Assembly (NCBI GenBank): GCA_021825865.1
Contig: JAKAFU010000007.1
Coordinates: 1-62,428, forward strand
Reading direction: 5' to 3'
Origin: a bacterium
GTDB lineage: Bacteria > SZUA-79 > Acidulodesulfobacterales > Acidulodesulfobacteraceae
DNA: 62,428 nucleotides
In this document: piece by piece, positions 37,081-55,129 of the stretch
Layout: the number at the start of each line of letters is the position of its first letter
Position numbering within the stretch: position 1 is the first letter of the stretch
Notes under the pieces: generated by a model
The model's input: the letters and a program-made list of their open reading frames with translations, nothing else
Databases searched by the model: none
What the model was told of the DNA's origin: nothing
Position numbers and translations under genes: made by a program

Positions 37081-37968
37081 TTATTTTAATCCGTGAAATT
37101 CAGGAAACAAATACAAGGAAAAACCCACTGTCAAAATAATCATAATAAAACCTGCTATACTCAGCATAGCCGCTTTATTACCCCTTAAACCTTTTGCGAC
37201 GCGTTCGTGCAGCAAAATTGCGTATATAAGCCATGTAATCAGTGAAATAATTTCAATCGGTTTTACCGAAGCCACCGATTTAAACAAAGCGCTTGAAAGA
37301 TATATGCCTATTACTATGCCTGCGGTTAAAGCAGGAAATCCTAATTTTAGACACTGATAATTCATATTATCCAACAATTCTAAATTGTACCCCTTACCTA
37401 AATTAAAGTAATTAAAATTCCTGCGAAAATTAAACAATCTGCCTTCATTTTTGCCGCTGCTGTTTTTATTGCCGCTATTTATAATTTTCAAATTCTTTTT
37501 AAGCTTTAGTTTTCTTTCCTGAAGAATATATATTAAAGATAAAATAAATGCAAGGGCGAACAGCGAATCACCCGTTAATATAAGAACAATATGCGCTATT
37601 AAAAGCCATGAATCTACTTTTAATATAGCGTTAATATCCATGGAAGGCGCAAAATAAGATACTAATAATGCCGCAATGACTATCGGGGTTGCATAAATAA
37701 CAATATATTTAGCTTTGTATAAAAGTTCAAAAAGAATAACTATAAGCATGAGTATCCACGAATTGAAAAAAATCATCAAATCGATAGGTATAATCATTGT
37801 AAAATGATATTTGTCCAAACCTGCAATAACAATTACACTCTGAATAACAAAAGTGAAATAGATTAAAAAAATAAAGGAATTATATGGATTATTTTTCTTA
37901 ATATAAAGAACTGCATAAGATAAAAAAAATAATAAAATCGGGATAAAATAATAATTTTTAAAAATCAT
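37081..37968 (-). CDS. HemX/CcsA-like cytochrome c assembly family membrane protein
   Basis: The 295-residue integral membrane protein has about eight hydrophobic segments. Near the C terminus SVKPIEIISLITWLIYAILL and a HERVAKGLRGNKAAMLSI block match the HemX/CcsA/CcmC family. The strict WWD heme-handling motif of true cytochrome c maturation proteins is not visible, which favours HemX. A Lys/Asn-rich cytoplasmic loop (about 152-190) is longer than usual. The ATG overlaps the stop of met8 by four bases (ATGA), so they are translationally coupled, and hemA follows. A role in controlling HemA or in heme export is inferred from context. Confidence 0.78.
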   Translation of the reverse strand: MIFKNYYFIPILLFFLSYAVLYIKKNNPYNSFIFLIYFTFVIQSVIVIAGLDKYHFTMIIPIDLMIFFNSWILMLIVILFELLYKAKYIVIYATPIVIAALLVSYFAPSMDINAILKVDSWLLIAHIVLILTGDSLFALAFILSLIYILQERKLKLKKNLKIINSGNKNSSGKNEGRLFNFRRNFNYFNLGKGYNLELLDNMNYQCLKLGFPALTAGIVIGIYLSSALFKSVASVKPIEIISLITWLIYAILLHERVAKGLRGNKAAMLSIAGFIMIILTVGFSLYLFPEFHGLK

Positions 37969-49215: not shown

Positions 49216-50586
49216 ATGAAAAATCACATAATCGGCACGAGCGGAGATATTTGTTCCGATAATAATTTAATTAATTTATTCTACTCTTACAGCAGAATTT
49301 TTTCACAGCTTAAAAATGTTCGGCAAAGCGGTATAAAAAAAATATTTCAAAAAATTATCGGCTCATATGTATCATCGGGTGATAATTGCGGCGATATAGC
49401 AAAAATTGCAGAAATTCTAAAAACTGAGGCGGCGAAAACATTTAAAATTAATAAAAACGATTTTGACAGATTACAAAACATTACTGAAAATGAAATTAAT
49501 ATACTGGATAAATTAAATATTGTACGTTTTTTAAATCTAAGCGATAACAATACGATACCGATGTTTTTATATTATTATAATGCAGATAAACAAGAAAACG
49601 CTAATAAAAATAATAAAAAAACGGTATCTGACTTATCTTTGTCATCGTTAAACTTAAATATCAATTTTATACGCGAAAAAATATATAACGGTAAAACAAA
49701 TAACAGTAAATTTGTATTTATTGCATCTTCAAGATATAAAAACGCCGGTATATTCAAATTTAACGATGACTTAATATGCGGTTTAAATAACTGCCTCAAT
49801 TTTAATAAATTGACCGGAGAGCAGAATATAGGAGAGCATAATATAGAAGAAAACACGAAAACGCAATTGATATACACTTTATATTTTATAGGGACTGCGA
49901 GTGAAGCAGAAAACGGTCTGATAAAAAATTATGCTAAAATTTTTAAACATAAAAATAAAATTATATTGGCGCCCCATTACCCAATAACCTATTTCTTGGA
50001 AAATTTCCCGCAATATTCAATATTTTCAGCTATTTCTGCCATAAACCCTTTTGAAACAAATTTTAAATATTGTTATACTTACAGAAATAATCTAATATCA
50101 AATATAACATCGGAAATGATTGTGCTATATTTATCAAAAAACAGTTCTTTAAATAATCTTATTAAAAAATTTGAAAAATCAAATAAAAATGTTAATATCA
50201 TAGAAAAGTTTATTGAAAATAATAAAATTGCGGCAGCAGGCAAAAATACAAATATTACAAACGCAAAAAACGCTCAAGCAGTAAATATTTTATATTCCGA
50301 TGCCGATACAGATAAAATAGACAGAAATGAAAATATATATAATTTATATAATTTGCGGTATATTGAAAAAGAAATATTAAATTTTCTATGTTATAGCAAT
50401 AAAATAACAGATAATATCAATATAACAGTTGACGATATAATTAATAATCTGACAAAGATTGTTCAGCAGAGAAATCCGGATAATGAAATAAATAAAATTA
50501 AAAAAATTATTCTTCAGTCAATTTCTTTAATGGAGATTAAAGGCGTTATAAAAAGAGAAATCTCAGGGGTAATAAAAAAAATATGA
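49216..50586 (+). CDS. Degenerate DprA-like protein
   Basis: The 456-residue Asn/Lys-rich protein is not obviously conserved, but its layout follows DprA (Smf). The N-terminal region ends with ILDKLNIVRFLNLSDNN, resembling the pre-Rossmann segment. A strand-loop FVFIASSRYKNAG stands where DprA has VGSR. FIGTASEAENG stands where SGLARGID would be, YTYRNNLISNITSEMIVLYL where RNRIIAGLS is, and a C-terminal winged-helix-like ISLMEIKGVIKREISG ends the protein. The central SGxAxGIDxxAH motif is lost and Asn-rich insertions are present. It overlaps topA by four bases (ATGA), and dprA-topA is a classical gene pair. DNA binding is possible; canonical RecA loading is doubtful. Confidence 0.55.
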   Translation: MKNHIIGTSGDICSDNNLINLFYSYSRIFSQLKNVRQSGIKKIFQKIIGSYVSSGDNCGDIAKIAEILKTEAAKTFKINKNDFDRLQNITENEINILDKLNIVRFLNLSDNNTIPMFLYYYNADKQENANKNNKKTVSDLSLSSLNLNINFIREKIYNGKTNNSKFVFIASSRYKNAGIFKFNDDLICGLNNCLNFNKLTGEQNIGEHNIEENTKTQLIYTLYFIGTASEAENGLIKNYAKIFKHKNKIILAPHYPITYFLENFPQYSIFSAISAINPFETNFKYCYTYRNNLISNITSEMIVLYLSKNSSLNNLIKKFEKSNKNVNIIEKFIENNKIAAAGKNTNITNAKNAQAVNILYSDADTDKIDRNENIYNLYNLRYIEKEILNFLCYSNKITDNINITVDDIINNLTKIVQQRNPDNEINKIKKIILQSISLMEIKGVIKREISGVIKKI

Positions 50587-53132
50587 AAAATTTAGTTATA
50601 GTGGAATCTCCCTCGAAAGCTAATACAATAAATAAGTATCTCGGCGATAATTATTCTGTTAAGGCTACTATGGGGCATATAAAAGATTTGCCTAAAAGTA
50701 AAATAGGCGTCGATATTGAACACGGATTCGAACCGTTTTACGAAATTATAAAAGGCAAAGAAAAAACTACGGAAGAAATAAAAAAATATGCTAAAGCCGC
50801 AGATACCGTTTTCCTTGCAGCCGACCCCGACAGGGAAGGGGAAGCAATCGCATGGAATGTAAAAGAAATTATAGACACCATAAAAGGCAAAAAACCTGCC
50901 GTTAAAAGAGTTCTCTTCAATGAAATAACAAAAGACGCCGTCAACGAAGCAATCAAAAATCCGACAGAACTCAATAAATCCATGTTTGAATCTCAGAAAG
51001 CCAGGAGGATATTAGACAGATTAGTCGGCTATAATTTGAGCCCTTTTTTATGGAAAAAGGTCGGCAGAGGACTTTCGGCCGGAAGGGTCCAATCGGTTAC
51101 GCTGTATTTAATAGTTGAAAGGGAAAAAGAAATTAATAATTTTGTCAAAGAAGAATATTGGACGCTTTCGGCAGTTTTTTTAATCAAAAACAGTGCAGGG
51201 AATTCATTTACTATTACTTCCGAACTTGCAAAAATAAATAACAAAGAACCTAAAATAAAAAATGCAGAAGAAGCTGAAAATATTAAAAATTCATTATTAA
51301 ATATAAATGAATATAAAATTTACAGTATCGGCAAAAAGTCCGTCAAAAGGAATTCTCCCGCGCCTTTAATTACAAGTACTATGCAGCAGGAAGCTTTCAA
51401 AACTATAAGGTTTTCCGTTAAAAAGACAATGAATATCGCACAGAAACTTTATGAAGGGATTGAACTGGGAAAAGTGGAAAGTATCGGAAAAGGCAAGCTG
51501 GGACTTACAGGCCTTATAACTTATATGAGAACAGATTCTACAAGAATATCCGATGCTGCTGCCAAAGCCGCAAATGAGCTTATTGTTAAAGAATTCGGGA
51601 AAGACTTTGCAAAAAACGGGACGGCTGTTATATCAAAAAAACAAAAAACAAAAAAAATTCAGGATGCTCACGAAGCAATAAGACCTTCAAATGTTTTTTT
51701 GACGCCTGAAAAAATAAAAAATTATTTATCTGCCGATGAATATAAACTTTACAAACTCATATGGACGTATTTTGTCGCTTCGCAGATGTCACAGAGCATT
51801 TATGACCAGTATTCCATAGTAATAAGCGGCAAAGCGGCTGAATCCTCCGGCAAAAATAGCATAGCAAACAGCACCGCTAATACTGATAGCATTAAAAAAA
51901 TTAAAAATAAAAAAAGTAAAATTGACGGGAAAACGGCTGCAGATGATACAAATGATAATACCGAAAATATCGCAGCAGATGAAAATGAATATTTATTTAA
52001 AACAGCGGAAAGTGTACTTAAATTTGAAGGATATTTAAAAGTACTTAACAAACTGCATGAACATCAAAAGGAGGATTTAGATTCAAATTACGATTCAGGC
52101 GCAGAACAGGATTCAAATACCGACAACTCTGCGAACAGCAGCACATATAATAATAAAAAGTCTGAAAATAAAAATAATAAAACCGCATATAAAGAACATG
52201 ACCCAAAATATATTTCAAAAATATTTGAGGTGCTAAAAGAAAACGACTCCGCTTTTATTCAAGATTTAAATCTTGCGCAGCATTTCACGGCACCGCCGCC
52301 AAGATATACCGAAGCCTCTCTCGTTAAAGCATTAGATGAAAATGGCGTAGGGAGACCGTCCACTTACCAGACGATTATATCAAATATTAAAAATAAAGAT
52401 TATGTTGAAACGGAAACCGAAACAAGTTCCGTAGCTAAATTTAAACCGACAGAGCTTGGGATTGTCGTATCCGATATTCTAAAAGAAGGTTTTCCCGATA
52501 TTTTAGACATCAAATTCACTGCAAATATGGAAAATAAACTTGATGAAATAGAAAACGGAACATTGGATAAAAATACGCTGCTGAGGGGATTTTACGATAA
52601 GCTAATTGAAAGATTAGCGGTTGCCGGAAAAGATATTGCAAGTGTAAAAGGCACGTCTATTCCTACAGATATAGTCTGTGATAAATGCGGAAAACCTATG
52701 GTCGTAAAATTCGGCAGATTCGGAAAATTTCTGGCGTGCAGCGGTTATCCCGAATGCAAGAATACAAGAGAGCTTTCTTCAGGTACTGAAAATAATATAA
52801 CAGGAGCACAGAATTTAAGCAGCGCCGACGGTTCCGAAAACAGTGAGAATTCCGCTCATATACGTCAGGCCGAAGAACCCGCCGTACTTTGCGAAAAATG
52901 CGGAAAACCTATGGTGCTTAAATCCGGCAGATTCGGAAAATTTCTGGCGTGCAGCGGTTATCCCGAATGCAAGAATACAAAACCTGTGCCTCTGAAATCT
53001 AATATACCCTGCCCAAACGAATGCGGAGGCTATCTTGTTACGAAAAAAACAAAAACAGGAAGAAGGTTCTACGGATGTTCAAATTATCCAAAATGCAATT
53101 ATGTAACATGGAAATTACCAAAAACAGAGTAG
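50583..53132 (+). CDS. topA: DNA topoisomerase I
   Basis: TopA relaxes negative supercoils by single-strand passage. The 849-residue protein has a Toprim domain (VIVESPSKANTI at 5-16, DPDREGEAIAW at 81-91) and the catalytic Tyr314 in LITYMRTDS. Three C-terminal four-cysteine zinc modules end it, the first two nearly identical in protein and DNA. Two insertions of about 50 residues each, rich in Asn, Ser, Asp and Lys (about 51836-51988 and 52060-52200), interrupt the region before AQHFTAPPPRYTEASLV. The ATG overlaps the stop of the DprA-like gene, giving coupled translation. Confidence 0.95.
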   Translation: MKNLVIVESPSKANTINKYLGDNYSVKATMGHIKDLPKSKIGVDIEHGFEPFYEIIKGKEKTTEEIKKYAKAADTVFLAADPDREGEAIAWNVKEIIDTIKGKKPAVKRVLFNEITKDAVNEAIKNPTELNKSMFESQKARRILDRLVGYNLSPFLWKKVGRGLSAGRVQSVTLYLIVEREKEINNFVKEEYWTLSAVFLIKNSAGNSFTITSELAKINNKEPKIKNAEEAENIKNSLLNINEYKIYSIGKKSVKRNSPAPLITSTMQQEAFKTIRFSVKKTMNIAQKLYEGIELGKVESIGKGKLGLTGLITYMRTDSTRISDAAAKAANELIVKEFGKDFAKNGTAVISKKQKTKKIQDAHEAIRPSNVFLTPEKIKNYLSADEYKLYKLIWTYFVASQMSQSIYDQYSIVISGKAAESSGKNSIANSTANTDSIKKIKNKKSKIDGKTAADDTNDNTENIAADENEYLFKTAESVLKFEGYLKVLNKLHEHQKEDLDSNYDSGAEQDSNTDNSANSSTYNNKKSENKNNKTAYKEHDPKYISKIFEVLKENDSAFIQDLNLAQHFTAPPPRYTEASLVKALDENGVGRPSTYQTIISNIKNKDYVETETETSSVAKFKPTELGIVVSDILKEGFPDILDIKFTANMENKLDEIENGTLDKNTLLRGFYDKLIERLAVAGKDIASVKGTSIPTDIVCDKCGKPMVVKFGRFGKFLACSGYPECKNTRELSSGTENNITGAQNLSSADGSENSENSAHIRQAEEPAVLCEKCGKPMVLKSGRFGKFLACSGYPECKNTKPVPLKSNIPCPNECGGYLVTKKTKTGRRFYGCSNYPKCNYVTWKLPKTE
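52712..52980 (+). repeat. 56-bp identical repeat encoding two TopA zinc modules
   Basis: Bases 52712-52767 and 52925-52980 are identical (56 of 56), starting CGGCAGATTCGGAAAATTTC. They code for the same segment of successive zinc-ribbon modules, and the sequence just upstream of each (CGGAAAACCTATGGT) is also shared. Identity at synonymous positions points to a recent duplication or ongoing gene conversion. Confidence 0.9.
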
Positions 53133-53365: not shown

Positions 53366-54196
53366 ATGTTTAGCTGGATAAGAGATGTTTCTATTAAAAC
53401 AAAAATCATCGTTCCTCTCGTTGTATTAATTTTAATACCGATTATTTTAATTTCTTACATTTCATTTAATCTTCAAAAGCAGCTCACTATCTCATTGACA
53501 AAGCATGATGCGGAGGTTACGGCAAAAACCGCTCTTTCAACCCTTAACACGATGATGGTGACTCATACCATACAAAATAAATCATACAGAAGAACGCTGA
53601 TAAAAATATATAAACGAATTAAAGGAATAAAAGGCTTTCAGGTTATACGCGGCAACCTTGTAAATGAAGAGTTTGATAAAAAGTATGGTCCGGGTCTTAA
53701 AGAAGAAGAACCGAATTCAAATTTTGACAGGGAAATTCTTGCTTCTCCAATCCCTATCACAAAAGAAATATATAATAATCATCATGCATATTTAATGGTC
53801 GGCATTCCTTTTGTTGCAACAACAGATTCAAGAGGGATTGATTGTTTATATTGCCATACAGACGCCGTAAGCGGAGATGTATTAGGCGGAATAAAAATTA
53901 TTTATTCTCTAAAAGCATTGGATGCCACGCAGTCGTATTTTATCAAATATTCCATAATCATAGCCCTGATTTCTATTATTTTAATTATTATAGTTCTTTA
54001 TCTTATAATTAAAAATGCGATTATCAACCCTACGATAAAATTATCAAAAGCTGCAGATAATATATCTAAAGGCGATTTCAAACAGGAAATTCCGCATACA
54101 AGAAACGATGAGATAGGAAAACTGGCTAAATCATTCAGCAGAATGGAAATAAGTCTCAGAAAAGCCATAGAAATGCTTAAGGAAAAGCAAAAATAG
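53366..54196 (+). CDS. Periplasmic c-type heme sensor with HAMP domain and no output domain
   Basis: The 276-residue protein has a first membrane helix (about 13-35), a periplasmic domain, a second helix (about 189-215) and a HAMP domain (NPTIKLSKAADNISKGDF..., about 220-270). The periplasmic part contains VIRGNLVNEEF, KYGPG and a heme-c attachment site C160-L-Y-C163-H164 followed by VLGGI. This layout matches the c-heme PAS-like sensor domains of Geobacter chemoreceptors GSU0582 and GSU0935. There it is followed by a signalling domain; here the protein stops right after HAMP. GGAGG lies five bases before the ATG. Redox or ligand sensing is inferred; how the signal leaves the protein is unclear. 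Confidence 0.82.
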   Translation: MFSWIRDVSIKTKIIVPLVVLILIPIILISYISFNLQKQLTISLTKHDAEVTAKTALSTLNTMMVTHTIQNKSYRRTLIKIYKRIKGIKGFQVIRGNLVNEEFDKKYGPGLKEEEPNSNFDREILASPIPITKEIYNNHHAYLMVGIPFVATTDSRGIDCLYCHTDAVSGDVLGGIKIIYSLKALDATQSYFIKYSIIIALISIILIIIVLYLIIKNAIINPTIKLSKAADNISKGDFKQEIPHTRNDEIGKLAKSFSRMEISLRKAIEMLKEKQK

Positions 54197-54246: not shown

Positions 54247-54945
54247 TTATATTAAGTTATATCTTTTGAGCAGAGGGATTAATGTTTCTATGCATAACCC
54301 CTCTGCGTTTTTATATGACCCCGAATATGATTCTACTATATTGTGTGAATCCTGAATGCCGTAAGCTCCTGCTTTATCGAAAGGCTTGCTTTCGTGTATG
54401 TAGCCGTATATTTCTTCATCGGATAATTTTTTTATTTTAACCTCCGTCTTATCATATACCGACTCATAAAGCCGTATATTTTTATTAATCAGCGCCGCGC
54501 CGGTGTAAACATTGTGAGTGTTGCCGGAAAGCATACTGAGCATATTAAAAGCGGAGACGGCATCTTTCGGTTTGCCTAAAGATAAGCCGCGGTTAGCTCT
54601 CTGGGGCAAAGTGTCTGGCTCAGGCTCGGACGAAGACAATGATGCAGCAGAAGGAGACAGCGGAGAAGACGGCACCGATGAATAATGAGCAGCACCGATA
54701 CTTAAATCATCAAAAATGACGATAGTGTCCGAACCTATGATAAAACAGTCTGGATAACTGCTTTCAATACTTTTGGCTTTATCAAGGGCAAGATTTTTCG
54801 CAAATTCAGAAGGCTCAATTTCGCCTAAGTATTCAGGTTCATTGATAATTTTATGTTCTATCGGTATAAAATCAATTTTATATTCTTTTAGAATATCTGA
54901 GCGGCGCGGTGAAGACGACGCTAAAATTATGCACGGTTTAGGCAT
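54247..54945 (-). CDS. maf: Maf family nucleotide pyrophosphatase, with Ser/Pro-rich insertion
   Basis: Maf/YhdE proteins hydrolyse non-canonical or modified nucleoside triphosphates and are linked to septum control. The family signature is complete: LASSSPRRSDIL at the start, the DTIV block with GSD, YTGAAL, DKTEV and FDKAGAYGIQD. A Ser/Pro/Glu-rich insertion (about 54582-54708) splits the region after DTIV and is visibly richer in G+C than its surroundings. I chose the ATG at 54945, which puts the start where the family begins; a TTG at 54996 would add 17 residues, and neither has a clear SD sequence. Confidence 0.9.
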   Translation of the reverse strand: MPKPCIILASSSPRRSDILKEYKIDFIPIEHKIINEPEYLGEIEPSEFAKNLALDKAKSIESSYPDCFIIGSDTIVIFDDLSIGAAHYSSVPSSPLSPSAASLSSSEPEPDTLPQRANRGLSLGKPKDAVSAFNMLSMLSGNTHNVYTGAALINKNIRLYESVYDKTEVKIKKLSDEEIYGYIHESKPFDKAGAYGIQDSHNIVESYSGSYKNAEGLCIETLIPLLKRYNLI

Positions 54946-55129
54946 TTTAAAAATATTTTCGATTGCACGCAGCACGTCAATTGCAGTATGTGGCAATCTT
55001 AATATTGTATTTTAATAAATTTTAATTAAATTAAAAATAAATTAAATTAAATACGAACCATAATTTATTGCGCTTTTGTACAGCGCGCTAAAACACAAAT
55101 TTTTTACAAATATTATTATTTTATTATTG

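Follow-up and report, generated by a model that had tools for sequence, protein, structure and literature searches.

A conserved CxxCH-bearing membrane protein that ends after HAMP and looks like the sister of a chemotaxis receptor

Receptors whose polypeptide terminates with a HAMP domain raise the question of how a signal can be passed on without an output. This question is posed by a gene in the window analysed here, a stretch of 62,428 nucleotides (contig JAKAFU010000007.1 of assembly GCA_021825865.1) from a member of the Acidulodesulfobacteraceae. An earlier note, made from the sequence alone, had described the gene product as a stand-alone heme-HAMP protein, with a CxxCH site at C160, C163 and H164 between two membrane helices and without any methyl-accepting, kinase or cyclase domain. 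This description holds. Hydrophobicity peaks at residues 14-32 and 197-215, HAMP is the last domain, and a Pfam profile search found no MCP, kinase or cyclase domain, with MCPsignal (PF00015) absent. The orthologues share the same HAMP-terminated layout. The protein, referred to here as the short receptor, is a real, intact and conserved membrane-anchored protein without an output of its own (Table 1).

Table 1. Positions in the window of the short receptor gene, its parts and its two neighbours.
Feature	Position	Strand	Remarks
Short receptor, open reading frame	53366-54196	+	ATG start; 276 aa; TM1, periplasmic CxxCH domain, TM2, HAMP, end
TM1, residues 14-32	53405..53461	+	Kyte-Doolittle 19-residue mean 3.08
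Periplasmic sensor domain, residues 34-190	53465..53935	+	Family shared with the MCP paralogue and the relatives' GGDEF receptor
M63-M64, N-terminal helix region of the sensor	53552..53557	+	M64 invariant
CxxCH heme c attachment motif, C160-L-Y-C163-H164	53843..53857	+	Read from the codons
TM2, about residues 195-215	53948..54010	+	Kyte-Doolittle 19-residue mean up to 3.61
HAMP, residues 217-260	54014..54145	+	PF00672, E=1.7e-10, cut-off passed
Last 16 residues before the stop, beyond the HAMP match: final part of the HAMP helix plus a Lys-rich tail	54146..54193	+	
topA, conserved upstream neighbour	50583..53132	+	Context only
maf, convergent downstream neighbour	54247..54996	-	Context only

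The surroundings of the gene offer no obvious partner. The earlier note had pointed to a gap of only about 50 bases before the next gene; the distance is correct (50 bp), but that gene is maf, which lies convergently on the opposite strand, so that the gap is no sign of a downstream operon partner and maf was rejected as one. In some relatives yggS follows the short receptor, even with a 4-bp overlap; being a housekeeping gene, it was likewise rejected. At the locus in the window genome and in the relatives, no partner gene was found beside the short receptor, and the neighbours are housekeeping genes. More specifically, where the contig includes topA the short receptor gene adjoins it, and maf, yggS or proC lies on the other side.

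To follow the gene through its family, we compared 30 genomes, namely the window's own and 29 relatives. The short receptor is intact in 17 of them, the window genome included, and spans four genera. The copies of the 16 relatives are 57-96% identical to that of the window, and the orthologues measure 270-280 aa, all stopping after HAMP. The same short architecture at nearly the same length, which the earlier note had proposed to look for, thus recurs within the family. A frameshift joining the gene to an output domain was searched for as well and appears in none of the relatives, nor does any fragment of an output domain lie between the short receptor and maf. We rejected a frameshift or truncation on the grounds of the same-locus orthologues: that a frameshift or an assembly error removed an output domain has a vanishingly small probability when the intact copies of 16 further genomes all share its end point. 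In one further relative (G011) the gene is split into two frames, and eight relatives show a clean absence at an intact topA locus. Four genomes in which no topA was found (G015, G016, G020 and G022) were left out of the presence/absence scoring. On the topA tree, this distribution forces at least six gains or losses of the gene. One assembly, G023, contains the whole topA locus twice (L058 on contig C80 and L051 on contig C44); the short gene of the second contig is divergent, and the assembly likely represents mixed strains.

Comparison of the window gene with five congeners gave dN values of 0.02-0.09 against dS values of 0.15-1.2, corresponding to an overall dN/dS of about 0.07-0.14. The ratio is equally low over TM2 and HAMP (0.02-0.12), indicating that the HAMP relay is kept by selection. 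Furthermore, a DEIG motif and much of HAMP are invariant among the orthologues.

The periplasmic part matched no Pfam family. The earlier note had placed it in the setting known from Geobacter chemoreceptor sensors, a kinship that our searches did not recover. PF21563, the class 40H, Geobacter-type MCP sensor, has no match in the short receptor and none in the window genome at E<=1; of 14 proteins from the wider sensor family two matched it (best E=0.15), and hhalign gave 3% against a PF21563-type kinase. PF11845 (Tll0287-like/DUF3365/sCache_heme) did not match the short receptor at E<=10 and was weakly matched by three of the 14 (best E=0.043), while hhalign of the sensor against a Tll0287-like set gave 42% over 43 columns around the heme motif. 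These alignments hint at a kinship with Tll0287-like proteins. In the PDB, neither phmmer nor two profile searches, one with the whole protein and one with the sensor alone, retrieved a heme sensor domain, and the profile searches returned HAMP or chance matches only. An AlphaFold2 model built on four near-identical sequences reached a pLDDT of 42.6, too poor for comparison with the Cache fold of the PF11845 family, in which the heme motif sits between beta3 and beta4. The domain lies outside Pfam coverage, although it is present in several distant bacterial families.

The heme attachment motif is invariant in 18 copies of the short receptor, 11 MCP paralogues and two GGDEF paralogues, and arises in 0.025% of 20,000 shuffles of the short receptor protein. 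CcsA and ResB are parts of the system II cytochrome c maturation pathway, and genes for a CcsA-type protein (PF01578) and ResB stand side by side on contig C19 of the genome. The c-type maturation system, whose lack the earlier note had regarded as fatal to a heme protein, is hence represented, making a covalent heme on the short receptor plausible. Apart from this pair, the window itself (37129-37776, minus strand) encodes another member of the cytochrome c assembly family (PF01578) in a frame of 295 aa. As for the axial ligands, M64 is invariant in all 31 aligned sensor domains, and the invariance of H47 is confined to the short proteins. M64 is a candidate sixth ligand of the heme, and H47 is a candidate likewise; in GSU0935, Met60, which also belongs to the N-terminal region, can serve as the sixth heme ligand (PMC8396549).

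The earlier note had suggested a check for full-length paralogues, and the window's genome indeed encodes one: a heme MCP of 597 aa with an MCPsignal domain (L002:1489-3279, plus strand), which has the same sensor domain, CxxCH included, and is 43% identical to the short receptor over residues 2-244. Pfam finds no HAMP in this protein. Between TM2 and the signalling domain, a Cys-rich stretch with several Cys and one CxxC takes the place of the expected HAMP, and this stretch is conserved in relatives. The heme MCP of G012 is split, in the region after TM2, into two overlapping frames (L100:1486-3292). The same sensor domain also occurs on GGDEF receptors in relatives; searches of the window genome turned up none. 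Among 386 genomes surveyed, 10 that do not belong to the family have the sensor domain; every open frame carrying it there is at least 481 aa long, and none is short. Of three that were examined, one is an MCP extending beyond a HAMP-like region.

In a tree of the sensor domains, in which the outgroups lie apart from the short and MCP forms, the MCPs group together in a single clade (92/100), and the short forms are not resolved as one. The short receptor looks like the sister of the chemotaxis receptor encoded in the same genome. Both the trees and the distribution are consistent with a duplication in this lineage from which the heme MCP would also derive, and after which one copy would have lost its signalling module; the direction is not established, and the confinement of the short form to this lineage favours loss of the output over gain of the MCP module.

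The distribution of the two forms suggests a link with chemotaxis receptors, the co-occurrence that the earlier note had proposed to examine. All 18 carriers of the short receptor have the heme MCP, the broken G012 copy among them, and the four genomes without any MCPsignal protein (G008, G010, G014 and G019) all lack the short receptor at an intact locus. The association is significant when kinship is ignored (Fisher p=0.005). Corrected for kinship on the topA tree, it comes down to 3-4 independent pairs, none of them contrary, a number with which a sign test cannot reach 0.05. An action by way of partner receptors, as the earlier note had suggested, would fit the absence of the short receptor from every MCP-free relative, but the independent events are too few for significance. 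Four relatives have MCPs without the short receptor (G006, G017, G025 and G027), which indicates that it is accessory and that chemotaxis does not need it. A heterodimer with the nearest MCP paralogue through HAMP is unlikely, because that protein has the Cys-rich stretch in place of a Pfam HAMP; contact through the sensor domains or within mixed assemblies is possible. The window genome further encodes a soluble MCPsignal protein of 237 aa with no membrane or sensor part (L067:1495-2208, minus strand), and this domain recurs, in frames of roughly 240 aa, in relatives with MCPs.

From these observations, we tentatively favour, at somewhat below an even chance, a redox or NO receptor that acts in trans on the chemotaxis system from a heme-bearing, HAMP-terminated anchor. 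The short receptor would probably be homodimeric, carry a single covalent heme c in its periplasmic part and finish with HAMP. A change in heme redox state or the binding of NO would then shift TM2 and switch the HAMP bundle, and the output-less protein could pass its signal on in trans via mixed assemblies, with the chemotaxis receptors as the likeliest recipients. That it is a regulatory subunit of the chemoreceptors, a former MCP without its signalling domain that tunes the array in trans through HAMP or the sensor domain, we consider unlikely. The missing output domain and the lack of a neighbouring partner would also suit a buffer for electrons or NO, namely a periplasmic heme protein tethered to the membrane in which HAMP merely holds the dimer and no signalling takes place. 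About half of the heme-Cache family are stand-alone domains for which redox roles have been proposed (PMC12889525). Such a buffer is conceivable but rather doubtful, given that TM2 and HAMP are constrained as strongly as the sensor, with the invariant DEIG motif among the conserved residues, and that a HAMP-bearing heme-Cache example bound NO tightly whereas a stand-alone one did not (PMC12889525).

The partner might instead be another signalling protein, such as a heme-bearing GGDEF receptor, a histidine kinase, or the sensorless 237-aa MCP-like protein. The relatives' GGDEF receptors with the same sensor and the recurrence of the small MCPsignal protein in MCP-bearing relatives speak for this option, which nevertheless appears improbable: the window's own genome lacks such a GGDEF receptor, and the 240-aa frame is also found in G006 and G017, which are without the short receptor. 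Slightly more improbable still is a dying or decoy receptor, that is, an MCP copy stripped of its output and itself being lost. The repeated gains or losses and the split copy in G011 would be expected of such a gene, but the low dN/dS in all five comparisons and the age of the short form, present in four genera, argue against it. A receptor acting in trans on chemotaxis remains the reading that we prefer, and the short receptor and the heme MCP, one without and one with an output, make a natural pair for testing signalling in trans.

The short receptor is not the only protein of its layout in this genome. Contig C5 encodes a second stand-alone heme-HAMP protein of 298 aa (L003:315-1208, minus strand) with PF11845 (E=4e-36) and HAMP. 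Both proteins have the short layout and a CxxCH motif, and their HAMP domains and tails are very similar (hhalign 99.4% over 129 columns), but the sensor of the second matches PF11845 and that of the short receptor does not. Relatives have this type too, with two copies in tandem in G009 (L163) and G012 (L162), and it is also present in the MCP-free genome G010. At the end of contig C43 (L008:1489-1599, minus strand) the last 36 residues of the second protein are encoded again, which probably reflects either an overlap in the assembly or another copy truncated by the contig edge. One lineage thus keeps two HAMP-terminated heme proteins with different sensor domains, of which the one in the window is the apparent MCP sister.

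A literature search on truncated chemoreceptors returned nothing on point. The closest counterparts are HAMP-terminated receptors of other kinds. AF1503 of Archaeoglobus fulgidus spans the membrane and ends in the cytoplasm with a HAMP domain that has no output attached (PMC3585426). Among PDB entries it matches the HAMP of the short receptor best (E=3.9e-9), but it is archaeal and the match is limited to the HAMP region. The Geobacter MCP sensors GSU0582 and GSU0935 have a periplasmic CxxCH domain in common with the short receptor; they belong to full MCPs, however, and the short receptor has no sequence match to them in the PF21563 and PDB searches. Nearest in architecture is 'Target 2' of Pseudomonas azotoformans, described in a 2026 preprint as an expressed heme-Cache protein with two TMs and HAMP, for which no output is named (PMC12889525). 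It was a dimer in detergent and released NO slowly (koff 6.25e-4 per s), while a stand-alone heme-Cache domain looked redox-like (PMC12889525). Target 2 shares with the short receptor the two TMs, the periplasmic c-type CxxCH domain and the cytoplasmic HAMP, but it belongs to PF11845, which the short receptor does not match, and comes from another phylum. The layout of a HAMP-terminated heme receptor is therefore already known; what differs here is the family of the sensor and the close MCP sister.
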